NCBI GenBank assembly: GCA_902790475.1
Contig: CADASG010000003.1
Coordinates: 1-64,000, forward strand
Length of the DNA: 64,000 bases
Source: an uncultured Ruminococcus sp.
GTDB lineage: Bacteria > Bacillota > Clostridia > Oscillospirales > Acutalibacteraceae
Direction of reading: 5' to 3'
This document shows, in pieces, positions 5,456 to 26,513 of the stretch. Positions within the stretch are counted from its first letter, which is position 1. Each line of letters starts with the position of its first letter. The notes below the pieces were generated by a model, which worked only from the letters and a program-made list of their open reading frames with translations, did not search any database and was not told the DNA's origin. Position numbers and translations under genes: made by a program.

Positions 5456-7195
5456 ATGAATATAGCTGCTGTTTCACACAGAACAACTATTGAGTACAGT
5501 TACGCGTTAAATGAAAATACCGTTGTCGTCAACCTCAGAACCGCCAAGGATGTTGACAGTGCAACGCTTATTTATGAGGATCCGTTTATTCATGAACTTA
5601 GACACGAAAAAAAGTGGACGGGCAAACCGCTTGAAATGCAGGTACTTGCGGAGCTGCGCGACCATATTATCTGGACAGCCCGTGTATCGCCGCGCTATAA
5701 GCGGCTGCAGTATTATTTTGAGATTCACGGAAAAGGGGATACCTATGCTGTATACGAGAACACGATCCTTCCCCTTGCCGAAGCTGAAAAAATCTCCCGT
5801 CAGTTTTTTAAATACGCGTGGATGAATTCTTCGGATATCATAAAACCGCCCGAGTGGGTCAGGGATACCGTGTGGTATCAGATCATGCCCGATCGTTTTT
5901 GCCGCGACAGTGAAGCGCCGAGCGATAACAAATTTCGCAAATGGGGTGATTTTGAAGATCCTGAATGGAACGATGTTTACGGAGGCACGATAAAAGGGAT
6001 CACTCAGCGGCTGCCGTATTTAAAGGCTTTGGGGATAAGCGGACTATATTTGACTCCTATTTTTCTTTCAAATTCAAGTCATAAATACAATACCTTTGAC
6101 TATTGGAAGGTCGATCCCGATTTCGGCACGGAAGAGGATCTGACAGAGCTGATTTCCAAAGCTCATGAAAACGGCATACGTGTCATGCTCGACGCGGTGT
6201 TCAACCACTGCGGTCACGAGTTTTTTGCATGGAAGGACGTTTTTGAAAAAGGCAGAGCTTCAAAATATTACGACTGGTTTTTTATCAATACCGATGATTT
6301 CGCAAAGTTCAAGTTTACAACAGAGGACGCTCGTTACTACACATTCTCGTTTTGGGCGCCCATGCCTAAGCTGAACACCAACAATCCCGAGGTTGTAGGG
6401 TATTTTACCGATTTATGTGTACACTGGGCTAAGGATTGGCATATAGACGGGATTCGCTTTGACGTCGGCGACGAGGTATCTCACAGCTTTATCCGTCGTT
6501 TGAACGATACAGTTAAGCGTGTAAACCCCGATATATTCTTTTTGGGTGAGATATGGATGGATTCCATAAGCTGGCTCGGCGGCAATGAATACGATTCGGT
6601 CATGAATTACCCTTTGCCCGAGTGTATCAACGATTTCTGGAAAAATACTCAGCTTACTTTTACCGATTTTATTTACGGGTTGAATTATTGCCGAACCTTA
6701 TATCCCGAGCAGATCACAAATTCACTTTTTAATTTTCTGGATACTCACGATACTCCGCGTGTTGCCGAAATCAGCCGCAGCGAGGATGAGCTGCTTCAAA
6801 AGCTCGCTGTACTGATGACAATGCCCGGTACGCCGAGTCTGTATTACGGAACGGAGATCGCCATGAAAGGAACGCGTGAACCGTACAACCGCAGGACTAT
6901 GCCTTGGGACGATATTAACAGCGGCAAGTATGATGAAATCAAGTCGAAAATCGGCGCTTTGATCCAACTTCGCAATAACAACAGTGAGCTGAAAAGCAAC
7001 GATTTTACTTTTATAAATGACCCGGAACAGCAGAGAATCATTCACTATGTAAAATCAAACCGTATCCATGTATTATTGAACTGTTCGTCGAATGATTATC
7101 ACATAAAAGAAAAGAATATAAAAACACTTTACCGGAATTTATATTCCGACGGTGTTTTGAACGCAAACGGAATCTTGATTTTTGTTTGCGCGTGA
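5456..7195 (+). CDS. GH13 neopullulanase / cyclomaltodextrinase-type alpha-amylase
   Basis: Glycoside hydrolase of 579 residues cleaving alpha-1,4 (and some alpha-1,6) glucan oligosaccharides. An N-terminal CBM34-like beta domain (about 1-130) precedes the catalytic barrel, the layout of GH13_20 enzymes. Catalytic motifs are intact: LDAVFNHCG, DGIRFDVGDE (nucleophile Asp), FLGEIW (acid/base Glu) and FLDTHDTPR (third Asp). There is no signal peptide, so it likely acts on imported maltodextrins in the cytoplasm. It is divergent from the AraC gene. The next gene follows after 23 bases, but with its own strong ribosome site and a secreted product. Confidence 0.92.
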   Translation: MNIAAVSHRTTIEYSYALNENTVVVNLRTAKDVDSATLIYEDPFIHELRHEKKWTGKPLEMQVLAELRDHIIWTARVSPRYKRLQYYFEIHGKGDTYAVYENTILPLAEAEKISRQFFKYAWMNSSDIIKPPEWVRDTVWYQIMPDRFCRDSEAPSDNKFRKWGDFEDPEWNDVYGGTIKGITQRLPYLKALGISGLYLTPIFLSNSSHKYNTFDYWKVDPDFGTEEDLTELISKAHENGIRVMLDAVFNHCGHEFFAWKDVFEKGRASKYYDWFFINTDDFAKFKFTTEDARYYTFSFWAPMPKLNTNNPEVVGYFTDLCVHWAKDWHIDGIRFDVGDEVSHSFIRRLNDTVKRVNPDIFFLGEIWMDSISWLGGNEYDSVMNYPLPECINDFWKNTQLTFTDFIYGLNYCRTLYPEQITNSLFNFLDTHDTPRVAEISRSEDELLQKLAVLMTMPGTPSLYYGTEIAMKGTREPYNRRTMPWDDINSGKYDEIKSKIGALIQLRNNNSELKSNDFTFINDPEQQRIIHYVKSNRIHVLLNCSSNDYHIKEKNIKTLYRNLYSDGVLNANGILIFVCA

Positions 7196-7218
7196 CAATA
7201 AAAAAGGAGGATTTGGCA

Positions 7219-9243
7219 ATGAAAAAAATCTTAGCAATTTTCCTAAGCGCGTCTCTGTTATTATCCGCAGTACCAGCCGTTTTGGCTCAGGAGGAAGAGG
7301 AAACCGAGGTTCCCTCCGCTCAGATCTCATTTGAAACGGAACCGGCGCTGTACGCTCACGCGGTTGCAGGTGCCGATGACGCGGAAGCTTGGCAGCAGTG
7401 GCAAAGCATTCATGACGAAAGCTTCATCTGTGAGAATCCAAGCGAAAAGTACTTTTTCCTGCCTTGTTCGGCAGACAGCAGTAAGGTTGAGCTTTTCAAC
7501 GCGTTTGGGTTTGATATTATCTTTAACGGGGTAGTGATCGAGCCTGAAAACAGCGCGGTCGTAAACTATGAACCTGATACCGCTTATTCTGTAGCAGTTG
7601 ACGAGCAGGGTTATTTCACGGTGAGATTCATGAAATCAAATGCAGAGGCTGCTGTTTACATCAACAACAGCAATGCAGACAAAAACGGCACGGATTTGAT
7701 GTCATACCTCAATGCGGACAAGGAGAACAGTGCCAAAGCAACGGGAGCGGTCGTCAATCCTGACGGAGACATAGATAACACTACGATCAAAAAAATCAAA
7801 GGCAGAGGAAATACCACATGGTCTAAGCCGAAAAAGGGTTATAATATAACCTATGATAAGAAAGTATCTGTCGGCGGAATGAAAGGCACAAAGAAGTATT
7901 CGATCCTTGCCAATTATCAGGACGATTCTCTTTCCCGCAACCGCTTTCTCTATGATCTGTCCGACGCGGTAGGTATGCCTTATGCCTCCGATTCCCGCTT
8001 TGTCGATTTCTATGCAAACGGATTCTATTGGGGCTCTTACCAGATGTGTGAAAAAATCGAGGTCGGTTCATCCTCACTGATAGATGATTTTGAGGAAACC
8101 GATTATCTGAACGAGGACGGCACAGTAAAAGAGGATTTCCCCTTTGTTTGTGAAGTAGACCCCAATTCAAGCGAAGAGGACTACACCCTAAAGTCAAGCA
8201 GCGGTTTGAGCATTACGATCAAAGCTCCGGAGATCGCGCCGGGGGAGACCGGTTATGACGAAGTAAAAGCCTATGTAAAGCAGAAATTCGACGATTTCTA
8301 CAGTCACACTACCTCGCGCGGCAAGGTGGAAGAAGTTGCCGATGTTGACTCACTGACAAAATTCTGGCTGATAAACGAGCTTGGAAAAAACTGGGATTCG
8401 GGCGTTGCGAGCACCTACTTCACCTACAAGCAGGATGAAAACGGTAATTATAAATTTTACGGTTCTCCTGTTTGGGATTACGACAACTCTCTCGGTAACG
8501 CAAACGGTATCGACAGAGAGCTTATGAGCTACCCGGTCTATGATTACACCGAATACACAGGCTGGTGGTGCAGCTTCAAAGGAAAGAGCTCAGGCAAAAA
8601 AACGAGCACCAATATCATCAACCGTCTTTCTCAGAACCGCACGATCACAGAGGCTGCTCCGAAAATATGGTTTGAATGCTTTGTTCCTGCAATCAATCAT
8701 TTCTCCGGCGAAAAGGTGAACTTGGATCTCGATAAAGAGTTTTACTCAGCGGATACCTACTTCAATTATATTAAAGACAGCGCCGAAATGAATTACAGAA
8801 GCGGCTGGCTGCTTAATACAGGCTCTTGGATCGCCGATCACTCATCTCTTTACAAGGCTTCTTTTGACGCCGTATCGCAAAAAATGACCTTTGGTAATCA
8901 AATAACAAGTTATCCGGATAGTTTCATTGGTATGTACGATTATGCCCGTGACTGGATGATCAGCAGAGCCGCGTGGATCTCCGAACAGTTTGCGGAAAGC
9001 TATTCTCCTAAAACCGTACTTATGGGAGATGTTACGCAGAATAATGATATCAAAATTGATGACGCGTCCGAGATCCAGCGAAGCTTGGCTTCAATGCTAA
9101 CTTTGGAGAAAACAGCCGAATTCGCGTCTGATACAAATAACGACGGTAAGATCACCATTGACGATGCTACTGCACTACAGCGCTATCTCGCGTCATATCC
9201 CACAGGAATCGGCATAGTCGGAAAAACCGTAATATACGGATAA
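7219..9243 (+). CDS. Secreted CotH-kinase-family protein with C-terminal type I dockerin
   Basis: Exported protein of 674 residues. It has a signal peptide (about 1-24, cut near VLAQ) and a short N-terminal segment. A CotH-like kinase domain follows (about 190-480), including KIKGRGNTTWSKPKKGYNI, which is a signature of CotH. The C-terminus is a two-repeat dockerin (about 600-665) with DTNNDGKITIDDATALQRYL; the first repeat is slightly divergent. CotH of Bacillus phosphorylates spore-coat proteins; dockerin-bearing CotH proteins are known as cellulosome components, where the substrate is unclear. The start at 7219 is set by AAGGAGG; an upstream in-frame start at 7186 overlaps the amylase gene. 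A cohesin partner is not in this window. Confidence 0.88.
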   Translation: MKKILAIFLSASLLLSAVPAVLAQEEEETEVPSAQISFETEPALYAHAVAGADDAEAWQQWQSIHDESFICENPSEKYFFLPCSADSSKVELFNAFGFDIIFNGVVIEPENSAVVNYEPDTAYSVAVDEQGYFTVRFMKSNAEAAVYINNSNADKNGTDLMSYLNADKENSAKATGAVVNPDGDIDNTTIKKIKGRGNTTWSKPKKGYNITYDKKVSVGGMKGTKKYSILANYQDDSLSRNRFLYDLSDAVGMPYASDSRFVDFYANGFYWGSYQMCEKIEVGSSSLIDDFEETDYLNEDGTVKEDFPFVCEVDPNSSEEDYTLKSSSGLSITIKAPEIAPGETGYDEVKAYVKQKFDDFYSHTTSRGKVEEVADVDSLTKFWLINELGKNWDSGVASTYFTYKQDENGNYKFYGSPVWDYDNSLGNANGIDRELMSYPVYDYTEYTGWWCSFKGKSSGKKTSTNIINRLSQNRTITEAAPKIWFECFVPAINHFSGEKVNLDLDKEFYSADTYFNYIKDSAEMNYRSGWLLNTGSWIADHSSLYKASFDAVSQKMTFGNQITSYPDSFIGMYDYARDWMISRAAWISEQFAESYSPKTVLMGDVTQNNDIKIDDASEIQRSLASMLTLEKTAEFASDTNNDGKITIDDATALQRYLASYPTGIGIVGKTVIYG

Positions 9244-16462: not shown

Positions 16463-18340
16463 TCATATGATTTTCATAAGCAGTGAGATCATTCCGCATA
16501 GCAGCAATCCCGTCACAAGCGGTAAAAGCATAGCAAAAGCGGTCGTTTTTAAGCTCCCTGTTTCTTTTTTTATCGTTAAGCAGGTAGTGGAACAGGGAAG
16601 ATGAAAAATGGTCATTATCATCATACAAACAGCGGTCGAAAGCTGCCATCCGTTTGAAATCAGAATCCTCTGCAATTCAGCATAACCTGCTACATCCGAA
16701 AGAGTTGTTTGTGAAAGATATGCCATTACCATTATCGGAATAACGATTTCATTTGCGGGAAAGCCAAGCAAGAACGCGGTGAGTATCACTCCGTCCAAGC
16801 CGACCGATCTGCCCAAAGGGTCAAAAAACGCGGTAATGTGTTGTAACACTGCGGTATTTCCTATTTGAGTGTTGGCGCAAAGCCAGATAAACGCGCCTGC
16901 GGGAGCCGCGACCATCGCCGCTCTGCCAAGCACAAAAAGTGTTCTGTCAAAAAGCGACCTTCTCAGTGTCCTGAGTATCTGCGGCTTTCGGTACGGCGGC
17001 ATTTCCAATACAAAGCCCGACGGTTCGCCCTTGAAAACCGTCAGCGTCAATATCTTTGAAATGCCGAGAGTTGCCGCAACAGCGAATACGATAGTCGTCA
17101 GCAGGACAAAAGCGACCTCAAGCGAATTGACAAAGCGGTTCGTTCCGTTCGTAAAAAAGCACATGGTGACTGCGATCAGTATCGGGAACCTTCCGTTGCA
17201 CGGCATAATGGAATTGGTCAGAACTGCGATTTTTCTGTCACGCGGATTTTCTAATATTCGGCAGCCTGTGACTCCGCAGGCGTTGCAGCCTATTCCCATC
17301 GCCATTGTCAGGCTTTGCTTTCCGTGACATCCGCTGCGTGCAAACGGCTTATCCAGATTGAAAGCTATCCTCGGCAAGTAACCTGAATCCTCTATAAGCG
17401 AAAACAGAGGGAAAAATATAGCCATAGGCGGCAGCATGACCGAAATAACCCAACTGAGAGTTGTATAAACTCCGTCTGTCAGCAATCCTCGGATAAACGC
17501 GTTCAATTGAAGGGCTTTCAGCAGAGTACACAGAAGAGGCTTCAGCCTTTCAAACCCGTAACTTAGCCATTGGCTCGGATAATTCGCGCCTGCCGCCGTT
17601 ATCCAAAACAACAGCGCAAAAACTCCGAGCATAATGGGGATTCCCCACCGTTTTGACGTAACTATCTTATCCCATTTTTCCGTTCTTCGGTTTACTCGCT
17701 GCTCACCGTCTTTTTGAACGCACTCTTTGCAAATTTCCGCACTTAAAGCAGTGAGCTTTTTTATATGATCACGGTGCCACTCCCGATAATTATCACCCAA
17801 CATATTATTATTTTGAAACGGAGGCTTGCATTCATAATCTCCGATACAAATCTCTGACACGGTTTTTTTGAGCGCTTTGATCCCCTGTTGTTTTGCGGCG
17901 CTGCATTTGACAACGGGAATACCGAGTCTTTGCGAAAGCGCATGTGCGTCAACACAGATACCGTTTCTTTTGGCTTCATCACAGAGATTCAGACAAAGCA
18001 CAGCCTTTTTTGCAAGAGACATCACTTGCAGAGCAAACACCAGATTTCGTTCGATCGCGTTTGCGTCCGCGACAATGACCACGCAGTCGTTTTCATTGCG
18101 GATCAGATGATCCCTTGTGACAGTTTCTTCCTTTGAAAAAGACAGCATGGAATAAGCGCCGGGTAAATCGGTAACAGTGAAGCGGTTTTCCATATAACTA
18201 TAGTGTCCCTCGGTACACTCAACCGTTTTGCCTGTCCAGTTACCCGTGTGCTGGTTCATTCCCGTCAGCTCGTTAAAAATCGTGCTTTTGCCTACGTTGG
18301 GATTTCCCGCAAGCGCTATGTGAAATTCGCTCCTACTCAT
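16463..18340 (-). CDS. feoB: Ferrous iron transporter FeoB
   Basis: Membrane Fe(II) transporter of 625 residues. The N-terminal G-domain shows GNPNVGKST, DLPGAYSM and LCLNLCDEAKR (NKxD-like position altered to NLCD, common in FeoB). A helical insert follows, then about eight membrane helices with Nucleoside-recognition/Gate repeats (SLIEDSGYLPRIAF and GCNACGVTGCRI). Length is slightly short but complete. Its ATG overlaps the TGA-containing end of feoA by four bases. No FeoC gene is next to it. Confidence 0.94.
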   Translation of the reverse strand: MSRSEFHIALAGNPNVGKSTIFNELTGMNQHTGNWTGKTVECTEGHYSYMENRFTVTDLPGAYSMLSFSKEETVTRDHLIRNENDCVVIVADANAIERNLVFALQVMSLAKKAVLCLNLCDEAKRNGICVDAHALSQRLGIPVVKCSAAKQQGIKALKKTVSEICIGDYECKPPFQNNNMLGDNYREWHRDHIKKLTALSAEICKECVQKDGEQRVNRRTEKWDKIVTSKRWGIPIMLGVFALLFWITAAGANYPSQWLSYGFERLKPLLCTLLKALQLNAFIRGLLTDGVYTTLSWVISVMLPPMAIFFPLFSLIEDSGYLPRIAFNLDKPFARSGCHGKQSLTMAMGIGCNACGVTGCRILENPRDRKIAVLTNSIMPCNGRFPILIAVTMCFFTNGTNRFVNSLEVAFVLLTTIVFAVAATLGISKILTLTVFKGEPSGFVLEMPPYRKPQILRTLRRSLFDRTLFVLGRAAMVAAPAGAFIWLCANTQIGNTAVLQHITAFFDPLGRSVGLDGVILTAFLLGFPANEIVIPIMVMAYLSQTTLSDVAGYAELQRILISNGWQLSTAVCMMIMTIFHLPCSTTCLTIKKETGSLKTTAFAMLLPLVTGLLLCGMISLLMKII

Positions 18341-18585
18341 CTGTTGCTCCCGTCAATGCAAATGATGATTTTTGCGCTGTCCGCGTGTCTGAGCGCAAAA
18401 ACCGTGTTGTTGATTCGGTAAGCAATAGGATCGCCGAACGGCGAGGTGATCAGCGAAGAAATTTGACAGCCTTCTATCAAACCGAAATCCGCCAATCTGT
18501 CGGCTAAATCAGAAGGGGTATTTATCTTTAAAACTGTCCCGGATCGGGAGGAGGATAGATCGCATAGCGGTATTATTCGATTCAC
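18337..18585 (-). CDS. feoA: Ferrous iron transport protein FeoA
   Basis: SH3-fold accessory protein of 82 residues that supports FeoB. The family core is visible: LADRLADFGLIEGCQISSL and GDPIAYRINNTVFALRHADS. The start is a GTG at 18585 with GGTGAT about seven bases upstream; no better ATG is available in frame. It is the first gene of feoAB and overlaps feoB by four bases. Confidence 0.88.
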   Translation of the reverse strand: MNRIIPLCDLSSSRSGTVLKINTPSDLADRLADFGLIEGCQISSLITSPFGDPIAYRINNTVFALRHADSAKIIICIDGSNR

Positions 18586-18702: not shown

Positions 18703-19641
18703 ATGAATAAAACGAATAATATCAGAAGCAGTCTGCTGCTGTCGCTTACTGCGCTGATTTGGGGCGTTGCCTTTGTTTTCCAGTCCATGGGCAACAATTA
18801 TATGCAGCCGTTTTCTTTCAACGCTTCAAGAAGTATTCTCGGCTGCATGGTGCTTGTCCCGCTGATTCTTTTCAAGACCCGTTACCCGAACGCCTTGGGC
18901 GGAAATGATTTCAGCCCGAAAAAGCTTCCTTTTAAAGCGACGCTGATCGGCGGTGTATGCTGCGGCTTGGCGCTGACAACGGCAACGATGTTTCAACAAA
19001 TGAGTCTGCAATATACGACCGTGGGCAAGGTTGGGTTTATTACAACTCTATATATTATACTGACTCCGATTTTCGGTTTGTTTCTAAAAAGAAAATGTTC
19101 CTTCATTGTATGGATAGGTGCCGCTGCGGCAGTCGTCGGAATGTATATGCTCTGCGTTACGGAAGGCTTCTCCGTTTCCTTCGGCGATTTTTTGGCATTT
19201 TTAGGTGCGGTGTTTTTTACTGTACATATTTTGATAATTGATCATTATTCACCAAAAACTGACGGAGTAGTTCTTTCCTGCCTTCAATTCTTTGTAGCGG
19301 CGTTAGTCAGCGGAACGATAGCGCTGATATACGAACACCCTTCCTTTGAGCAGATATCACAGGGAATTATTCCTATACTTTATACAGGTATTATGTCGAG
19401 CGGTGTTGCATATACGCTGCAAATCATCGGTCAGCGCGGTTTTAATCCTACTGTCGCTGCTTTGATTATGAGCATGGAATCGGTAGTTTCCGCAGTGGCA
19501 AGCTATTTCGCTTTCCGGATCGGTTTTTTAACACAGGATCAAAGCATGACTGCGGTACAGATCACAGGCTGCGTGATAATGCTTTGCGCTGTAATAATCG
19601 TTCAGCTTCCGATTGACAAATTATTGCGCCGTAAAGATTGA
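18703..19641 (+). CDS. EamA/DMT-superfamily transporter
   Basis: Inner-membrane exporter-type protein of 312 residues with ten predicted helices in two EamA repeats. The first repeat starts at LLLSLTALIWGVAFVFQS, and the second near FLAFLGAVFFTVHILIID. Substrate unknown: the family exports amino acids or other metabolites. The start at 18703 follows GAGGAGG, and the longer frame from 18673 overlaps the promoter. It is divergent from feoAB. The promoter of the B12-responsive operon overlaps its stop codon, so it probably forms a separate transcription unit. Confidence 0.88.
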   Translation: MNKTNNIRSSLLLSLTALIWGVAFVFQSMGNNYMQPFSFNASRSILGCMVLVPLILFKTRYPNALGGNDFSPKKLPFKATLIGGVCCGLALTTATMFQQMSLQYTTVGKVGFITTLYIILTPIFGLFLKRKCSFIVWIGAAAAVVGMYMLCVTEGFSVSFGDFLAFLGAVFFTVHILIIDHYSPKTDGVVLSCLQFFVAALVSGTIALIYEHPSFEQISQGIIPILYTGIMSSGVAYTLQIIGQRGFNPTVAALIMSMESVVSAVASYFAFRIGFLTQDQSMTAVQITGCVIMLCAVIIVQLPIDKLLRRKD

Positions 19642-19666
19642 TATTTTTTGTCAGATATGTTATACT
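19638..19666 (+). promoter_or_regulatory. Promoter of the B12-riboswitch operon
   Basis: TTGATA (19638-19643), 17-nt spacer, TATACT (19661-19666), placing the transcript start just upstream of the riboswitch. Confidence 0.7.
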
Positions 19667-19694
19667 GATAGATAAGATAAAAAACTGATAAAAA

Positions 19695-19835
19695 CTGAAT
19701 ATACAGGCTTTGCGTTTTATCCGATTAGGATATGTAATAGAGAATACGGTGAGAATCCGTAGCAACTGTCATTACTGTATTTGAGCTTTGCTCATAAGTC
19801 AGATCGCTGCCGCATCGCCTTGGATTTGCATTCTT
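19695..19835 (+). ncRNA. Cobalamin riboswitch
   Basis: The conserved core is visible: AGAATACGGTGAGAATCCGT (19741-19760), then AGCAACTGTCA, and the B12-box-like AAGTCAGATCGCTGCCGC (19796-19813). The peripheral part between ACTGTCA and the B12 box is short, as in the compact AdoCbl/aquocobalamin variant class. It sits downstream of a good promoter and upstream of the secreted DUF4430 gene. The expression platform follows at 19859-19897. Exact 5' and 3' limits are approximate; a covariance-model search would settle the class. Confidence 0.82.
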
Positions 19836-19858
19836 GGACAAGAAGAAGCGCAGCCAAA

Positions 19859-19898
19859 ACCGCAGCGATATTTACTGCGGTCTGTTTGTTGTGCTTTT
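19859..19898 (+). terminator. Riboswitch expression-platform terminator
   Basis: ACCGCAG (19859-19865) pairs with CTGCGGT (19875-19881), then CTGTTTGTTGTGCTTTT. A second AT hairpin (TTCTTAATAATTATTAAGAA) and a small AAGGC/GCCTT hairpin follow, just before AAGGAGG, and may control ribosome access. Confidence 0.65.
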
Positions 19899-19946
19899 CT
19901 TAATAATTATTAAGAAAGGCATTTTTGCCTTCAAGGAGGAAAAACA

Positions 19947-20939
19947 ATGAAAACATCAGAAAAAAAACTATTCTCACTCGTCATGGCACTCATTATTGCC
20001 CTTTCGCTCAGTGTTGTTCCGTTTAGCGCAAGCGCTGCGGAGGATTTGGGCAAAGTCAGGGTAGTTGTCAAAAACGAAACATTTTCCACCGCTGACAGCG
20101 CCGCGTGGGCAGGCGAATTGCTAAAAACCGATATTTCGCTTGACAGCGATTCAACAATGATGACAGTGATCGAGGATGCTTTTAAGTCAAACGAAATCGA
20201 GTACAGCTTTAACAACTACAATTATTTAGCTTCTATAAACGGTCTTTCCGAGTACGCATACAACGGCTCCGGCGGCTGGATGATGACTCTTAACGATTGG
20301 TTTACCAGCGAAGGCTCCGACGCTTATTCAGTTGAAAAGGGTTCGCTCGGAGACGGAGATGTTATCACCGTACTTTATACCTGCTCATGGGGAGCCGATG
20401 TCGGTAGCTTGTGGGGCGATACCTCGACCACTCTTAATTCGTTATCTGTCACGGGTGGTTTGCTTGATAAGGCTTTTGATCCGTCGATAACCGAGTATAC
20501 GCTTACCGTAGCTCCCGACAACGGTAACGCAGTAAGCATTATTCCCGAAGCGTTCAATAAAAACTATCAAGTCAAAACTTATTTGAACGATTACACACCT
20601 GATAAAACAGGCAGCGAATATAAAGTGCTCAGCAAGGCTATTTCCGTCAAAAACGGGGATACCGTTTATATCGGCGTAGGAAATGAAAACTGGGCTTCCA
20701 TGAACCAGAAAACCACCGAAACCGTTTATCAGCTTCATATTTCATATACTCCTCAAACTGGTGATGTGAATTTGGACGGCGAGGTCAATATAAATGACGT
20801 TACGATTCTTCAAAAATATCTCGCCGCATATTATGAGCTTTCCGACGATCAAAAGACAGCGGCTGATGTGTTCGGAAACGGAAGTCTGACTATAGCTAAC
20901 GCTACCGCTATTCAAAAGATCATTGCGCGTGTTGCATAA
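19947..20939 (+). CDS. Secreted DUF4430 (transcobalamin beta-like) protein with dockerin
   Basis: Exported protein of 330 residues. Signal peptide about 1-30 (cut near ASAAEDLG). DUF4430 domain about 37-150 with NGSGGWMMTLNDWF and GDGDVITVLYTCSWG. A cadherin-like beta-sandwich lies about 158-268 (DPSITEYTLTV). A C-terminal dockerin lies about 270-330; its first repeat GDVNLDGEVNINDVTILQKY is canonical, and the second (GNGSLTIANATAIQK) lacks the usual DD pair. DUF4430 is the C-terminal, cobalamin-contacting domain of transcobalamin and intrinsic factor. First gene after the riboswitch, with AAGGAGG upstream. Cobalamin binding is inferred from domain and regulation. Confidence 0.86.
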   Translation: MKTSEKKLFSLVMALIIALSLSVVPFSASAAEDLGKVRVVVKNETFSTADSAAWAGELLKTDISLDSDSTMMTVIEDAFKSNEIEYSFNNYNYLASINGLSEYAYNGSGGWMMTLNDWFTSEGSDAYSVEKGSLGDGDVITVLYTCSWGADVGSLWGDTSTTLNSLSVTGGLLDKAFDPSITEYTLTVAPDNGNAVSIIPEAFNKNYQVKTYLNDYTPDKTGSEYKVLSKAISVKNGDTVYIGVGNENWASMNQKTTETVYQLHISYTPQTGDVNLDGEVNINDVTILQKYLAAYYELSDDQKTAADVFGNGSLTIANATAIQKIIARVA

Positions 20940-20978
20940 GTTTTCGAGGATATTTTAGTGAGAGGAGGTTGCTGCGCG

Positions 20979-22124
20979 GTGAAAAAAGGCTTGTCTCTTT
21001 TTGTTTCTCTTATTCTTTGTGCGGTTTGTTTGTTTAGCGCTCAGGCGATATCAACGGAAAGCATAATGGAGAAGGAATCTGAAATTTGCTCGCATCTGCT
21101 TACGCTTCCGGCTCCCACTGTCGGCTCGATCGGCGGCGAATGGATGGTGCTCGGTCTTGCCCGCAGCAACAGACTCCCGGAAAGCTTTTCGGAAAGCTAT
21201 TACGCGAATGTTCAAAGCTATGTGAAAGCTATTGGCAGCGCCAAGCTGCACCGTTCCAAATCAACTGAGAACGCGCGTGTGATACTTGCGCTGACCGCTA
21301 TCGGCAAAAATCCTCTGAATGTAGACGGTTACGACTTGTTACATCCATTGGCTGACTTTGATTTTGTGAAGAAACAGGGCGTGAACGGTCCGATATGGAC
21401 ATTGCTTGCACTTGACAGCTTTCAATACGAAATCCCGATTGACCTCAATGTAAAACACCAAACTACTCGCGAAGGTCTGATAGATCATATTCTTGACAAT
21501 CAGTGCTCAGACGGGGGATGGGATCTAAACGGAGAATCTGCAAACCCGGACTTAACGGGAATGGCGATTCAGGCTTTAGCGCCTTACTACTCCTCTAATG
21601 AAAAGGTCAGACTTGCTGTTGACAAAGCGTTAGAGCTTATTTCGGCAAATCAAAACAATGACGGAAGTTTTTTGGGTAGCGGAGAAAACACCCCCGAAAG
21701 CTGCGCGCAGATCATCACTGCGCTTTCAGCGCTGAACATCGACTGTAACAGCGATTCGCGCTTTATAAAAAACAATCGGTCTATAGCAGACAGCTTGATG
21801 AGCTTTTCGGTCAACTGCGGATTTGTTCACACCATGGGCGGCGGCTATAATCAGATGTCTACCGAGCAGGGGTATTATGCTTTAGTGGCTTACAACAGAA
21901 TGCTTCACTGTAAAAATCCCCTGTATGATATGACAGATTTATCAGTCAAGGGTGATATCGACAGCGACGGAAAGGCAACGATCGACGACGCGACGCTGAT
22001 ACAGCGATATCTCGCGGATTTAGCTGATTTCTCGCGTCTGCAAAAAAAGCTGTCCGATTTATATTCCGACGACAGGATCACGATAGATGATGTGACATGG
22101 CTGCAAAGGAAACTTGCCGGATAA
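20979..22124 (+). CDS. Secreted alpha/alpha-barrel (terpene-cyclase-like, transcobalamin alpha-like) protein with dockerin
   Basis: Exported protein of 381 residues. Signal peptide about 1-24. Prenyltransferase/squalene-cyclase-type alpha/alpha repeats lie about 28-310, with QW-like motifs NQCSDGGWDLNG and NQNNDGSFLGSG. A dockerin lies about 318-381: the first repeat GDIDSDGKATIDDATLIQRY is canonical and the second (YSDDRITIDDVTWLQRK) is shortened. Transcobalamin and intrinsic factor use this barrel as their cobalamin-binding alpha domain. The start is a GTG at 20979, ten bases after GAGGAGG; no ATG fits. With the preceding DUF4430 protein it would supply both halves of a transcobalamin-like binder. 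The function is inferred. Confidence 0.82.
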   Translation: MKKGLSLFVSLILCAVCLFSAQAISTESIMEKESEICSHLLTLPAPTVGSIGGEWMVLGLARSNRLPESFSESYYANVQSYVKAIGSAKLHRSKSTENARVILALTAIGKNPLNVDGYDLLHPLADFDFVKKQGVNGPIWTLLALDSFQYEIPIDLNVKHQTTREGLIDHILDNQCSDGGWDLNGESANPDLTGMAIQALAPYYSSNEKVRLAVDKALELISANQNNDGSFLGSGENTPESCAQIITALSALNIDCNSDSRFIKNNRSIADSLMSFSVNCGFVHTMGGGYNQMSTEQGYYALVAYNRMLHCKNPLYDMTDLSVKGDIDSDGKATIDDATLIQRYLADLADFSRLQKKLSDLYSDDRITIDDVTWLQRKLAG

Positions 22125-22133
22125 GGTGTATTT

Positions 22134-23027
22134 ATGATCGATTTTGTAAAAAAGTATAAAATTGCCGTTATTGCTGCATTAATAGCGCTGACAGCGTTAG
22201 TTATTGCATTTATGCTCGGCGGCAATCCCGAGGAAAAAGCGAATAATCCGGCAGATCAGATAAGGAAGGCAGCCACAGTTGACAGTGTTGCCGAAACATC
22301 ATCAGCCGTTTTACCTTCCTCAACGAAAAAGGAAACGACTCCTTCTTCAAGTGCTTCAACGCAATCGGTCACTCAGTCTGTAACGAAAGCTTCGTCCTCG
22401 GTTCCAACTTCGACAGTATCCGCGCAGTTGCCAACTGTTTCATCTAAAGCTGCCGCAGCTGTTGCGGATACTCGCGCAAACACTTTAAAGCCTACTGTAA
22501 AACCAACAGAAAAGCCTAAAAGGACATCAACCGATAAGTATAAAACAACTCCCGTTCCGCAAGGAAAACCGGAGCCTGTTGAACCTCAGGAACAGACCGA
22601 GGCAAATAAAAAATCGACCGTTACCATGTCGATTTCCTGTGCGTCGGTTTTAAATGATATAAATAAGCTTGATGAGGATAAACATGAGATCATACCCCCG
22701 GACGGCTGGATCTTGAAATCGTTACCTGTAACGATAAATGAGGGAGAGTCTGTTTTTGATCTTCTGAAACGAGTGTGCCGAGACAAAAAAATCCATATGG
22801 AGTTTTCATTCACGCCTGTATATAATTCTGCTTACATAGAGGGTATCGGCAATCTGTATGAATTTGATTGCGGAAGCAGTTCGGGCTGGATGTACAGAGT
22901 TGACTCATGGTTTCCGAATTACGGTTCATCACGCTACGTACTGCACGGGGGAGAAACCATAGAATGGCTTTATACCACAAACATGGGCAGCGATATCGGC
23001 GGCAGCAATCAGCAGTGGGGAGAATGA
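22134..23027 (+). CDS. Membrane-anchored DUF4430 protein
   Basis: Protein of 297 residues. An N-terminal hydrophobic helix (about 8-29) acts as a signal anchor. A Ser/Thr/Pro-rich linker (about 35-160) contains KPTVKPTEKPKRTSTDK and presumably spans the cell wall. The C-terminal DUF4430 domain (about 165-295) has SSSGWMYRVDSWFPNYG and EWLYTTNMGSDIGG. It has no dockerin. Position between the secreted pair and the ECF genes, nine bases after the barrel gene, suggests it hands the ligand to the transporter. That role is inferred. Confidence 0.84.
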   Translation: MIDFVKKYKIAVIAALIALTALVIAFMLGGNPEEKANNPADQIRKAATVDSVAETSSAVLPSSTKKETTPSSSASTQSVTQSVTKASSSVPTSTVSAQLPTVSSKAAAAVADTRANTLKPTVKPTEKPKRTSTDKYKTTPVPQGKPEPVEPQEQTEANKKSTVTMSISCASVLNDINKLDEDKHEIIPPDGWILKSLPVTINEGESVFDLLKRVCRDKKIHMEFSFTPVYNSAYIEGIGNLYEFDCGSSSGWMYRVDSWFPNYGSSRYVLHGGETIEWLYTTNMGSDIGGSNQQWGE

Positions 23028-23031
23028 TATC

Positions 23032-23922
23032 ATGAAAGACGCTTTTTCAAAACTGCACCCCTTTACAAATATGCTGTTTTTTGTGTTCGCTATCGGCTTC
23101 TGCATGTTTTTGATGCATCCTGTTTGTCTGATGATCTCGTTCATTATCGGTCTGTTTACCGCGATTTATCTTAACGGAAAAAGAACGGCGGCATTCTCTT
23201 TGAAAGTTTTGCTGCCGCTGCTTTTGATGACTGTGATCATAAATCCTGTTTTTAATCACAGCGGAGCGACTATTGTTGAGTATCTTCCGTGGGGAAATCC
23301 GCTGACGCTTGAATCTATAATATATGGTTTAGCAGCCGCAGTACTGCTGTGTTCGGCAGTGCTGTGGTTTTCGTGTTTTCATAACGTCATGACGTCGGAT
23401 AAGTTTGTTTATTTATTCGGAAGAATAATACCGTCTTTAAGTCTGCTGCTTTCAATGACGCTGCGCTTTGTTCCGAGGTTCCGAACACAGCTTCAAAGTG
23501 TTCGCAAAGCACAAAAGGCGATCGGTAAAGATGTTTCAAACGGTTCTATAATCAAGCGCGTCCGCAATGCCGTAAAAATCCTTTCGTTAATGATAAGCTG
23601 GTCGCTGGAGAATTCGATTGAAACCTCAGACTCTATGAAAAGCAGAGGCTACGGATTAAAAGGCAGAACGTCTTTTTCAATTTATCACCTCACACTATCT
23701 GATAAAATCTGTATTTTCGTAAATATCGCGGAAGCGGCTTTGTTAATCGCGATCCTGTTTTCGGGTCAAATGCATTGCAGATACTTTCCGACAGTAAAAT
23801 TTGAGCTTTGTTCGGTATCTGCAATTCTGTTTTATTGTGTTTACTCGCTGTTTTTACTCACACCGCTTGTCATCAATGTTAAGGAGGAAATCAAATGGAA
23901 GCGCTTGCTGTCCGCGATTTAA
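23032..23922 (+). CDS. ECF transporter transmembrane subunit EcfT (CbiQ-like)
   Basis: Integral membrane coupling subunit of 296 residues. N-terminal LHPFTNMLFFVFAIG is followed by hydrophobic helices. The coupling helices that contact the ATPases carry the family's basic/Arg motif: LRFVPRFRTQLQSVRKAQKA and SDSMKSRGYGLKGR (ARG-like motif, with SRG). The two terminal helices are hydrophobic. It overlaps the downstream ATPase-S gene by 28 bases. The cargo is inferred to be cobalamin from the riboswitch. Confidence 0.88.
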   Translation: MKDAFSKLHPFTNMLFFVFAIGFCMFLMHPVCLMISFIIGLFTAIYLNGKRTAAFSLKVLLPLLLMTVIINPVFNHSGATIVEYLPWGNPLTLESIIYGLAAAVLLCSAVLWFSCFHNVMTSDKFVYLFGRIIPSLSLLLSMTLRFVPRFRTQLQSVRKAQKAIGKDVSNGSIIKRVRNAVKILSLMISWSLENSIETSDSMKSRGYGLKGRTSFSIYHLTLSDKICIFVNIAEAALLIAILFSGQMHCRYFPTVKFELCSVSAILFYCVYSLFLLTPLVINVKEEIKWKRLLSAI

Positions 23923-26513
23923 GCTTTCGTTACCCCGAATCCGATACCGATTTGCTCAGCAACATCAGTTTTACAGTCAACAGCGGCGAATTCATCACCT
24001 TATGCGGAGTTTCTGGAAGCGGCAAAACTACTTTGCTGCGGCATTTGAAACCAGCGCTTACTCCTTGCGGAAGCAAATCGGGAGAGATCGGTTTATTCGG
24101 TAAAGATATCTCGTCGCTTACAATGCGTGAACAGGCGGCAAAAATCGGTTTTGTTATGCAGTCGCCCGATAGCCAGCTTGTGACAGATAAGGTTTGGCAT
24201 GAACTCGCGTTTGGTTTGGAGAGCTTAGGCTTACCAAATGAGATAATACGCCGAAGGGTTGCCGAAACCGCTGATTTTTTCGGACTCGGCATGCTGTTTG
24301 AAAGAGACATCAATTCGCTGTCGGGCGGTCAAAAGCAGCTTTTGAACCTCGCCTCCGTAACAGCGATGCAGCCCGACTTGCTTCTGTTAGACGAGCCGAC
24401 CTCGCAGCTTGATCCGATCGCCGCAGCGGAATTTCTCTCCTGCGTTTCCAAAATCAACCGCGAGCTCGGAGTAACGGTTATTATCACAGAGCATCGGCTT
24501 GAAGATGTCTTGCCCGTCAGCAGCAGGGTTTTAGTTTTGGAACAAGGAAGGGTGATATCTTACGATACGCCCCAAAACACGGGAAGAAACCTCAAAAAAG
24601 CCAACAGCCGGTGTTTTTTATCTATGCCCTCTTATATGCAGATTTGGCACGCTGCGGAAACAAGTGAGAAAAGCGATTGCCCCGTTACGATCGCGCAGGG
24701 GAGAGAGTGGCTAAAAAGATTTGCCGATTCGCACACGATTCATGAATTGTATCCCGAACCGCAGTATCCTCAGGGAGATACTGTCGCTCAGTTGAAGCAT
24801 GTGTATTTTCGTTATCAAAAGAACTCTCCCGACGTGCTCAAAGACCTCAGCCTGACCGTGAGGCAGGGTGATTTTACCGCGATACTTGGAGGAAACGGCG
24901 TCGGAAAAACAACGTTGCTCTCGGTGCTCGGCGGTACGGAACAGCCGTATAGCGGCTCTGTTACACGAAGCGTAAAAACAGTGACGATGCCGCAAAACCC
25001 GCAGGCGGTTTTAAACGGCAAAACCGTTTATGAATCCTTGTGTGATGCGTTAGACGGTGAGGTATCCTCATCGGAAACGGATAAAAGAATCCATCATATT
25101 TGTCAGCTGCTGGAAATACACAGCCTTTTAAACCGACATCCGTTTGATTTGTCCGGCGGTGAACAGCAAAAAGTTGCTTTTGCAAAACTGCTGTTGCTAA
25201 ATCCGCAAATGATTCTGCTGGACGAACCAACCAAGGGGCTGGACGCTGTCGGAAAACAACAGCTCGCAGGCGTTTTGCAGTCATTGACCTGCGCCAAGGT
25301 TACCGTCATAATGGTGAGCCATGATGTGGAGTTTTGCGCAAGATACTGCCATCGCTGTATGCTGCTTTTCAACGGCGAGATCATTTCCGAAGATTCTCCG
25401 AGGCAATTCTTTGTTTCCAACAGCTTCTATGTAACCGCCGCACGTCGTATGTCTCGGGGAATAATTGAGGACGCAGTTACCGCTGATGATGTCATTTACT
25501 GCTGCACCGGGAAAAAGCAAGAACCGTCAAAGCCTGATTTAGATATTAGTGATTTTGAAACGCCCACTTATAATTCTAAAGAGGAATTATCTTCCAAAAA
25601 AATTTTTCCTTTTTGGAAAAAAATAACAGCTCTGATCGGTGCTGTTTTGCTTATTGCAGGGTGCTTGATTGATACGGAGATCATATCATTCCCCGAATTT
25701 GATTCAGTTCCATTTTTGATAAAGCTTTCACTTATCGCCGTTCCGTTACTGCTTTTGATAATATCGACGGCAGCTGTTTCGTCAAAAAGGAGCGTCGGAA
25801 AATATATTTCAAAAAGCAAGCTGCCGAAACGCACCGCTGCGGCAGCCTTTATGATCCTCTTAATGATACCTATTACAATTTTTATCGGAGTTGTATACTT
25901 AAAGGATCAAAAGTATTTGTTTATATCTCTTTTAGTTCTTTTTGAATGCATGATACCCTTTTTCCTGATATTTGAAGGCAGAAAGCCGCAGGCGAGGGAA
26001 CTGGTTATCATAGCGGTGCTGTGTGCAATTGCCATTGCCGGCAGATCGGTGTTTTTTATGCTTCCGCAGATCAAACCCGTCGTTGCGCTCGTCATCCTCT
26101 CGGGAGTTTCGCTCGGAGGGGAGACAGGCTTTATTGTCGGCTCGGTCACAATGCTGGTGTCCAACATTTATTTCGGACAGGGAGCGTGGACTCCGTGGCA
26201 GATGTTCGCGGCAGGCATTATCGGTTTTCTGTCGGGAGTTATCTTTCAAAAGGGTCTGCTGCAGCCGACACGCGCTGTGCTGAGTGTATTCGGCTTTATA
26301 GTAACCATACTTATTTACGGCGGTGTCATGAATTTTTCATCTCTTGTGCTTACGCATGCGCCGATAAACTACGCTTCTTTAACAGCATTTTACGCACAGG
26401 GTTTGCCCATGGATATCATTCACGCGTTATCCACTGCGGTTATCCTGTGGTTTGCTTCTGACCCGATGCTTGAAAAAATGCATAGGATAAAAACAAAATA
26501 TCAACTATTATAA
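23895..26513 (+). CDS. Fused ECF transporter: two ATPase domains plus membrane S-like domain
   Basis: Single polypeptide of 872 residues. ATPase 1: Walker A GVSGSGKTT (38-46), signature LSGGQ (142-146), Walker B LLLLDEP (162-168). ATPase 2: Walker A GGNGVGKTT (332-340), signature LSGGEQ (419-424), Walker B ILLDEP (440-445). From about residue 572 the C-terminal part is hydrophobic (roughly nine to ten helices); GRSVFFMLPQIKPVVALVIL and GETGFIVGSVTMLVSNIYF match the ECF S-component (CblT/CbrT-like) style. S-components bind the vitamin. Fusion of A, A' and S is unusual. AAGGAGG lies upstream of the ATG, which is inside the end of the ecfT gene. Last gene before a strong terminator. Confidence 0.86.
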   Translation: MEALAVRDLSFRYPESDTDLLSNISFTVNSGEFITLCGVSGSGKTTLLRHLKPALTPCGSKSGEIGLFGKDISSLTMREQAAKIGFVMQSPDSQLVTDKVWHELAFGLESLGLPNEIIRRRVAETADFFGLGMLFERDINSLSGGQKQLLNLASVTAMQPDLLLLDEPTSQLDPIAAAEFLSCVSKINRELGVTVIITEHRLEDVLPVSSRVLVLEQGRVISYDTPQNTGRNLKKANSRCFLSMPSYMQIWHAAETSEKSDCPVTIAQGREWLKRFADSHTIHELYPEPQYPQGDTVAQLKHVYFRYQKNSPDVLKDLSLTVRQGDFTAILGGNGVGKTTLLSVLGGTEQPYSGSVTRSVKTVTMPQNPQAVLNGKTVYESLCDALDGEVSSSETDKRIHHICQLLEIHSLLNRHPFDLSGGEQQKVAFAKLLLLNPQMILLDEPTKGLDAVGKQQLAGVLQSLTCAKVTVIMVSHDVEFCARYCHRCMLLFNGEIISEDSPRQFFVSNSFYVTAARRMSRGIIEDAVTADDVIYCCTGKKQEPSKPDLDISDFETPTYNSKEELSSKKIFPFWKKITALIGAVLLIAGCLIDTEIISFPEFDSVPFLIKLSLIAVPLLLLIISTAAVSSKRSVGKYISKSKLPKRTAAAAFMILLMIPITIFIGVVYLKDQKYLFISLLVLFECMIPFFLIFEGRKPQARELVIIAVLCAIAIAGRSVFFMLPQIKPVVALVILSGVSLGGETGFIVGSVTMLVSNIYFGQGAWTPWQMFAAGIIGFLSGVIFQKGLLQPTRAVLSVFGFIVTILIYGGVMNFSSLVLTHAPINYASLTAFYAQGLPMDIIHALSTAVILWFASDPMLEKMHRIKTKYQLL

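Follow-up and report, generated by a model that had tools for sequence, protein, structure and literature searches.

A cobalamin-riboswitch operon of an uncultured Ruminococcus predicted to encode two dockerin-bearing capture proteins and a CbrT-family importer

Introduction

The animal cobalamin carriers transcobalamin, intrinsic factor and haptocorrin combine an alpha6/alpha6 toroid with a DUF4430-type beta domain and hold cobalamin between the two. Intrinsic factor cleaved in two is described as still functional, the fragments jointly binding cobalamin (PMC6257451). Both domain types are encoded by the operon reported here, but on two genes rather than on the single chain of transcobalamin and intrinsic factor, with added dockerins and a cadherin-like domain and with an ECF importer in the same operon; in fused dockerin-bearing relatives, moreover, the SLBB (DUF4430-type) domain precedes the toroid.

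The core idea was published in 2007 as a prediction: bacterial toroid and SLBB proteins encoded in operons with CbiO/CbiQ were proposed to scavenge B12 (Burroughs et al. 2007, PMC1796856). Those operons share with the present one a secreted SLBB plus alpha/alpha toroid, a second SLBB protein, a CbiO-like ATPase and CbiQ. The terms riboswitch, cellulosome, dockerin and ECF have no occurrence in the main text of that paper, and the passages of it drawn on here contain neither an S-component assignment nor separately docked chains. The riboswitch link, the CbrT link and split halves that each bear a dockerin were not found in the literature searched.

ECF-CbrT of Lactobacillus delbrueckii binds and transports cobalamin and also cobinamide (PMC5997447); S-component family, ECF module and cobalamin are shared with the present system, but in L. 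delbrueckii several S components share one module, whereas EcfA, EcfA′ and S form one chain here, and surface capture proteins do not appear in the parts of that source used. Dockerin proteins likewise assemble on cell-surface cohesins in cellulosomes and in the amylosome of Ruminococcus bromii (PMC9112005, PMC5814915), whereas the cargo here resembles a vitamin-binding protein; the main text of neither paper contains the terms B12 or cobalamin. For Gram-positive bacteria, no surface B12 catcher beyond the 2007 prediction was found, by title among the matches listed, yet these bacteria compete for B12. The B12 surface lipoprotein of Bacteroides is BtuG, of a protein family not known to be related to the proteins below. 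Surface capture of B12 by lipoproteins of gut Bacteroides (PMC6143338) is a functional parallel in gut bacteria, although in Gram-negative cells.

Results

Locus organisation and riboswitch

The window (the whole 64,000-nt stretch analysed) carries five closely packed genes 3′ of a cobalamin riboswitch, P1 to P5, all on the + strand, with the following features.

19638–19666, +, promoter-like TTGATA-17-TATACT with TG ahead of the second hexamer (consensus scan, 10/12 positions)
19696–19828, +, cobalamin riboswitch aptamer, short type (RF00174; covariation in 17 relatives)
19829–19946, +, probable expression platform, the aptamer-to-P1 interval (terminator scan, fold; mechanism putative)
19891–19922, +, terminator-like site inside the probable expression platform (terminator scan)
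19947–20939, +, P1, secreted-type DUF4430/SLBB-cadherin-dockerin protein (Pfam, local profiles)
20124–20423, +, P1 SLBB/DUF4430 domain (PF14478, 38.8–40.5 bits, cut-off 23.8)
about 20427–20750, +, P1 cadherin-like domain (Pfam 25.9 bits, above cut-off)
about 20751–20936, +, P1 dockerin (Pfam 36.5 bits, above cut-off)
20958–22124, +, P2, secreted-type alpha/alpha toroid-dockerin protein (Pfam, alignment A1, predicted structure)
21060–21941, +, P2 toroid (alignment A1, predicted structure)
21942–22121, +, P2 dockerin (Pfam 27.0 bits, above cut-off)
22134–23027, +, P3, membrane-tethered SLBB protein (Pfam, layout of relatives)
22719–23018, +, P3 C-terminal SLBB/DUF4430 domain (PF14478, 51.5 bits, cut-off 23.8)
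23032–23922, +, P4, EcfT (CbiQ family) transmembrane component (PF02361, 43.3 bits)
23895–26513, +, P5, EcfA-EcfA′-S single chain (Pfam, NCBIfam, local profiles)
23895–24608, +, P5 EcfA
24777–25436, +, P5 EcfA′
25965–26510, +, P5 S component (S-family profile, to CbrT 6fnp)

The riboswitch proposed in the preliminary description was borne out by the RF00174 match, which exceeds the gathering threshold by a small margin (33.2 versus 31.5 bits). This score is marginal by itself, but covariation and a slid-structure control back the aptamer: among 17 aligned related RNAs two-sided changes occur at 13 of 22 pairs, and 93.6% of alignment cells pair, against 35.0–42.8% in slid-structure controls. 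It is the sole cobalamin riboswitch match found genome-wide (E up to 0.001). Folding of 19690–19945 gave a z-score of -2.57. Promoter-like sites are weak evidence here, two being present in the region against a shuffle mean of 1.5.

Capture proteins and importer

P1 and P2 both have signal-type N termini, read from sequence, and carry dockerins above the Pfam cut-off, in agreement with the earlier suggestion of separate secreted halves with dockerins; the second calcium loop of the P1 dockerin looks degenerate by eye. For P2, GTG at 20979 is a more likely translation start than 20958, judged by eye from context, with AGGAGG upstream. In P3 a single N-terminal hydrophobic segment, taken by eye as a membrane anchor, is followed by a Ser/Thr-rich linker of ~165 residues. 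P1 and P3 both fall in the DUF4430/transcobalamin-type SLBB clade (PF14478 above cut-off), and DUF4430 was matched in all 18 aligned P3-type domains. The P3 type is better conserved (mean column identity 66% versus 33% for the P1 type). The P1-type profile reaches transcobalamin only at E 0.95, and the P3-type profile did not find it at E up to 5.

The P2 toroid falls short of the Pfam cut-off (Prenyltrans, 21.6 versus 26.5 bits), but its model is well scored (mean pLDDT 90.8, pTM 0.84) and forms a 12-helix alpha6/alpha6 barrel by manual count, with helices 103–106 and 108–114 merged. The top Foldseek matches of this model are terpene cyclases; transcobalamin appears at ranks 39 (TM-score 0.50) and 46 (0.38). 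Toroid sequence profiles likewise find squalene/terpene cyclases, and gave no match to transcobalamin at E up to 1, nor up to 10 in a second search, so a sequence match to transcobalamin was rejected as proof. PF01122 is not among the families matched by P2 at E up to 1, a further difference from the animal carriers; it matches one of the 22 alignment A1 toroids (E 0.0016) and is not among the matches listed (best 25 of 28 families) for 60 A7 toroids. Thus, of the transcobalamin-type domains claimed previously, the DUF4430 domain and the alpha/alpha barrel fold stood, whereas the toroid sequence lies closer to squalene/terpene cyclases than to transcobalamin, which by fold is one of several similar matches.

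By family assignment, P4 and P5 constitute a predicted B12-type ECF importer. With a profile of 16 S domains, the nearest solved S component is CbrT (6fnp, E 1.2e-19; next S components 5e-4 and 1e-3), which adds a specific relative to the B12-type ECF importer already suspected.

Genome context

The genome has 73 dockerin matches and 10 cohesin matches, 8 of the latter above cut-off; type I dockerins on P1 and P2 and cohesins in the same genome fit a cellulosome-type assembly. Dockerins of one locus resemble each other (mean likeness 118.7 versus 96.0; 0/10000 shuffles), a comparison confounded by host lineage and given no weight here. A MetH-type gene is present; CbiD and Cob_adeno_trans had no match in this 94% complete genome, so that both absences are soft.

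Fused and split relatives

A single chain with both SLBB and toroid is encoded by 48 of the 80 named loci. Dockerin-type named loci number 29 on the toroid tree, 30 with L067 (excluded from the tree, toroid <230 residues) and 32 with L109 and L113, classed by their best toroid, which is dockerin-free. Both domains share one chain in 13 of the 29, and the state switched between fused and split at least twice inside one dockerin clade. The window gene order recurs in 11 of the 29, and six (eight if two with an extra dockerin gene are counted) combine the fused form with the same downstream genes; this neighbourhood survey thus takes the original proposal further by adding fused relatives. P1 and P2 probably cooperate, because fusion is found in 13 of these 29 loci and the state has changed at least twice in one clade. 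For gene order, gaps of at least 2000 nt were dropped, and ORFs were taken from the first start codon and are thereby lengthened.

An SLBB domain matching the P3 profile occurs in 83 of the 84 toroid-bearing genomes identified in a set of 291 from the class. The 32 non-fused named loci include 13 that encode a single further SLBB protein and three that encode none, some being cut by contig ends. In seven of 20 fetched regions (L035, L039, L043, L047, L048, L049 and L052) the sole SLBB partner of the toroid is the anchored P3 type. These regions were taken from the best toroid matches (two others of comparable score, G206 and G019, were left out); L033 and L084 seem to represent a single contig, having equal length and RNA score.

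An RNA model search placed a riboswitch next to the first capture gene in 24 of 30 dockerin-type named loci, including all 23 in which this gene starts >250 nt inside the locus, 14 of these 23 having been used to train the model. The six loci lacking the RNA all begin ≤186 nt from a contig end; L109 and L113, where the dockerin-toroid gene starts at locus base 1, also gave no match to the model. In the genomes of the 20 relatives, 12 of 22 cobalamin riboswitches fall within the fetched regions, which make up ~0.7% of the DNA. The Rfam riboswitch is missing from eight fetched regions, three of them cut at the operon start; a short-type model recovered that of L033, leaving four uncut regions negative. 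Four of the 20 genomes, one of them 81% complete, had no cobalamin riboswitch match anywhere. When 50 of the 80 named loci were sampled, 47 genomes gave a riboswitch match with E no higher than 0.001, and in 35 it exceeded the cut-off; L070 and L078, negative in the genome-wide search, were positive with the RNA model, and L131 was negative in both. A pattern search for the core of the riboswitch, a regular expression passed by 24 of the 50 loci, was dropped as too strict; as it placed hits by contig range without contig identity, it served to select sequences, and the counts above rest on direct searching with the RNA model.

Discussion

The operon is probably a B12-regulated system for cobalamin capture and import in a cobalamin-dependent host with a cellulosome-type toolkit, in which binding, the shared site, docking and hand-over are inferred. 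Cobalamin as the ligand is strongly supported, because the riboswitch is the only one found in the genome, an RNA of this kind accompanies 23 of 23 dockerin-type loci with upstream DNA (14 of them in the training of the model), the S component family matches CbrT, a MetH-type gene is present and CbiD was not found. When cobalamin is scarce, the riboswitch would permit operon expression, a direction of control presumed from the aptamer. P1 and P2 would be exported and each dock via its dockerin onto a scaffoldin cohesin. Families, fusions and precedent suggest that one cobalamin is clasped from two sides, by the P1 SLBB domain and the P2 toroid, in the manner of the beta and alpha domains of the animal carriers transcobalamin and intrinsic factor. 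From its position and layout, the SLBB domain of P3, on a long membrane tether, may receive the ligand or guide it to the S component; import would follow through that component, of the CbrT family, together with EcfT and EcfAA′, and the vitamin would be used by the MetH-type enzyme. Speculatively, a two-chain design may help to free a ligand that a one-piece carrier grips too tightly.

The toroid might instead be an enzyme, a terpene cyclase or related protein placed in a B12 operon by coincidence, as squalene/terpene cyclases top both the sequence and the fold matches. Terpene cyclase activity requires a D-x-D-D acid motif. This motif was found in none of the 80 toroids examined, and P2 as a terpene cyclase was rejected on that ground; P2 has a signal-type N terminus and a single toroid, and the frequent fusion to SLBB (48/80 loci) further argues against an enzyme, which we regard as highly improbable. 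A partnership of the toroid with the tethered P3 domain, or capture by a single protein, with P1 serving adhesion or display, seems unlikely, although P3 may be more than a relay. It would fit the loci where a P3-type SLBB stands alone (seven of 20 fetched regions), the 13 of 32 non-fused loci with one further SLBB, mostly anchored, although some are cut by contig ends, and the stronger conservation of the P3 type; the loci with a P3-type SLBB alone lower confidence in the capture-and-import reading and in its extension below, and raise it in P3 as partner. Yet most named loci have an SLBB on the toroid's own chain, split and fused forms interchange within the dockerin clade, and diverged SLBB domains may escape the local profile.

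It is unlikely, too, that the natural ligand of this corrinoid system is cobinamide, pseudocobalamin or another neighbour-derived cobamide that is either salvaged or serves the MetH-type enzyme as it is. The aptamer is of the cobalamin family, although present data do not separate cobamides; CbrT also handles cobinamide, the lack of CbiD and Cob_adeno_trans matches leaves salvage habits open, and the ligand range of SLBB domains was questioned by a reviewer of the 2007 paper (PMC1796856).

A broader extension of the capture-and-import reading is put forward tentatively, as possible but open to considerable doubt: in gut bacteria resembling Ruminococcus, the cellulosome or amylosome could double as a vitamin harvester, half-carriers on neighbouring cohesins closing on cobalamin only in its presence, after which the P3 SLBB would displace that of P1 from the toroid and ferry the ligand across the wall to the importer. 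The split would then make a very tight carrier reversible without its destruction. If the system is confirmed, surface digestion complexes may gather vitamins too, and a bacterial counterpart of transcobalamin would allow domain closure, release and hand-over to be studied on individual proteins and would offer a clue to the origin of animal B12 carriers. R. bromii is reported to be unable to make B12 and, when grown on resistant starch together with R. gnavus, to lower its B12-dependent methionine genes (PMC6231298). Genomes titled R. bromii (L068, L075, L077) have this system with a fused SLBB-cadherin-toroid-dockerin protein, a one-chain form that would place vitamin capture on the amylosome.

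The operon and its riboswitch

Five genes (P1 to P5) stand on the forward strand, all 3′ of a cobalamin riboswitch:

19696–19828, +, cobalamin riboswitch aptamer (RF00174; 33.2 bits against a gathering score of 31.5, marginal)
19947–20939, +, P1: signal-type N terminus, DUF4430, cadherin-like domain, dockerin (domain profiles)
20958–22124, +, P2: toroid and dockerin; start more likely GTG 20979
22134–23027, +, P3: one N-terminal hydrophobic segment, long linker, C-terminal DUF4430
downstream, +, P4: EcfT (domain profiles)
downstream, +, P5: EcfA-EcfA'-S (domain profiles)

The operon is a variant of a kind predicted in 2007, when Burroughs and colleagues described bacterial proteins with toroid and SLBB domains, and operons encoding a second SLBB protein alongside CbiO/CbiQ, proposing that these scavenge B12 and that there was transfer to animals (PMC1796856). 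A literature search, with most subscription papers and all preprints outside its scope, found nothing on dockerins with cobalamin binding, dockerins with DUF4430, or transcobalamin with the cellulosome.

Because the RF00174 score is marginal, further RNA tests were run. In an alignment of 17 short-type sequences (window included), 13 of 22 consensus pairs have two-sided changes, 93.6% of cells are able to pair (35.0–42.8% when partners are displaced by one to three columns), and none of 500 shuffles attained the covariation score of 0.419. The riboswitch that the preliminary description placed upstream of the operon is supported by both an Rfam match and covariation, and is the sole cobalamin riboswitch found in the host genome (94% complete).

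Four kinds of evidence bear on cobalamin as the probable ligand: where the RNA lies, how often it occurs elsewhere, the S component and the host's own genes. A short-type model built from these 17 sequences was run on the window and 99 loci. It matched by the first capture gene in 24/30 dockerin-type named loci (14 supplied training sequences, picked after 50 of the 80 named genomes were searched with RF00174; 10 did not), the position varying between 487 nt upstream and a 77-nt overlap with the longest reading frame. Each of the 23 dockerin-type loci in which this gene starts >250 nt inside the locus has a match; in the six lacking one, the gene is ≤186 nt from a contig end. RF00174 itself gave 22 matches in the genomes of 20 relatives, 12 inside the 20 regions fetched round toroid genes (~334 kb of ~47 Mb) and three more ~3 kb or less from another toroid match on the same contig. 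Eight of the 20 fetched regions, three of them cut at the operon start, have no Rfam riboswitch match, although the short-type model found the RNA in one of the eight (L033); four of the 20 genomes have no RF00174 match anywhere.

A profile of 16 S domains matches CbrT (6fnp), characterised as a transporter of cobalamin and cobinamide (PMC5997447), at 1.2e-19, against 5e-4 and 1e-3 for the S components that follow. A MetH-type gene in the host encodes pterin, homocysteine and B12 domains; no CbiD match was found in its genome (94% complete). Cob_adeno_trans (PF01923) also has no match there, so the host's adenosylcobalamin may not be made by this enzyme type.

Fused and split forms in relatives

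P1 and P2 probably work together, to judge from their relatives. Among the best 80 of at least 525 relatives found with the toroid alignment (the named loci), the SLBB domain (the DUF4430 match of P1 and P3) lies within the toroid protein in 48 and not in 32; a separate SLBB protein is present in 60, EcfT in 58, EcfS in 60 and all three in 56. Records titled R. bromii (L068, L075, L077) encode a single SLBB-cadherin-toroid-dockerin chain. In a tree built from the toroids of 79 named rows and the window, 28 dockerin rows including the window form one group (support 99/96), within which all 13 fused-dockerin rows fall. Strongly supported branches require at least two changes of the fused-dockerin state, so this lineage has switched between a single one-dockerin chain and a pair of chains that each carry their own dockerin. 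L128, from a record titled Bacteroidales, has the same operon and a toroid among Bacillota rows, reflecting either a binning error or transfer. Very long chains with several toroids and SLBB domains occur in L106, L108, L112, L127 and L138 (Paenibacillus, Lutispora and a Clostridiaceae relative), and L132 encodes such a protein of 3382 residues.

A survey of neighbourhoods for conserved order, as the preliminary description proposed, recovered the window's order in 11/29 dockerin loci; in six the fused form precedes the same downstream genes, and two more add an extra dockerin gene to that arrangement. Intergenic gaps (only those <2000 nt counted) are ≤100 nt in 76/81, with a median of −4. Of 291 genomes in the class, the toroid occurs in 84 and an SLBB that fits the P3 profile in 105; 83 contain both. 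The p-value of 1e-50 should not be read literally, because relatedness links the genomes and some SLBBs in long chains fit the profile too.

Likeness to transcobalamin

DUF4430 is matched by 13/13 P1-type and 18/18 P3-type domains scanned, and is also C-terminal in transcobalamins (PMC4350170). The P2 toroid scores under Pfam cut-offs; its predicted model (mean pLDDT 90.8, pTM 0.84) has 12 toroid helices by manual count. Among proteins of solved structure, squalene and terpene cyclases are closest to it by sequence (8.7e-13 and 1.9e-7 in two profile searches), and terpene cyclases also come first in Foldseek, with transcobalamin at rank 39 (TM-score 0.50 over 327 columns, resembling that of neighbouring farnesyltransferases) and again at 46. 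For the predicted model of fused L075 (pLDDT 82.5, pTM 0.60), transcobalamins rank 4, 11, 14, 17 and 21 and intrinsic factor 45, interspersed with terpene cyclases and complement proteins, at TM-scores by query length of 0.27–0.33. Complement C3 is the top match of this model (TM-score 0.21), and 5/22 toroids in the toroid alignment match the complement/macroglobulin TED domain. The toroid is thus nearer terpene cyclases than transcobalamin, and the P1-type SLBB profile reaches transcobalamin at E 0.95 only. On these grounds the P1/P2 system is described as probably working like a transcobalamin, and P2 is not assigned to PF01122. After cleavage into two fragments, intrinsic factor retains tight cobalamin binding and cubilin recognition (PMC6257451), a precedent for capture by two separate pieces.

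Proposed route of cobalamin

Most likely, low cobalamin would turn the operon on, and P1 and P2 would be exported, dock onto cohesins and sandwich cobalamin; P3 would take or guide the ligand towards the S component, import would follow through the ECF module, and the MetH-type enzyme would use the vitamin. The parts are observed and the steps proposed. The host genome has 10 cohesin and 73 dockerin matches, so cohesins are present. These make up a large cellulosome-like system on contigs C27 (three cohesin matches), C5, C33, C8 and others. Another dockerin cargo in the window is a CotH-kinase-like protein ending in a dockerin (7186–9243, +), adjoining an alpha-amylase gene (5456–7195, +).

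In SLBB-only proteins (no other domain found), the SLBB is at the extreme C terminus in 58/65, lying 134–192 residues after the most hydrophobic segment in dockerin-type members and up to 376 residues past it in other types with the P3 layout; judged on sequence, this P3-type spacing suits a tether. In some relatives the toroid may pair with P3 instead, and in the window perhaps does so during hand-over. Speaking against a joint P1–P2 site, only 16 of the 32 non-fused named loci encode two further SLBB proteins, 13 encode one and three none, and the toroid has a single SLBB partner in 7/20 fetched regions; several single- or no-SLBB loci are cut by contig ends, though not all, and the P3-type domain is more conserved than the P1-type. 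Capture by P1 and P2 followed by import remains the likeliest course for the window.

Upstream, an EamA-type gene precedes the operon, divergent from feoB and an 82-residue, FeoA-sized orf just upstream of it (16463–18585, −). A group II intron domain (RF02001, 44.5 bits; 1–55, −) is cut at the window edge.
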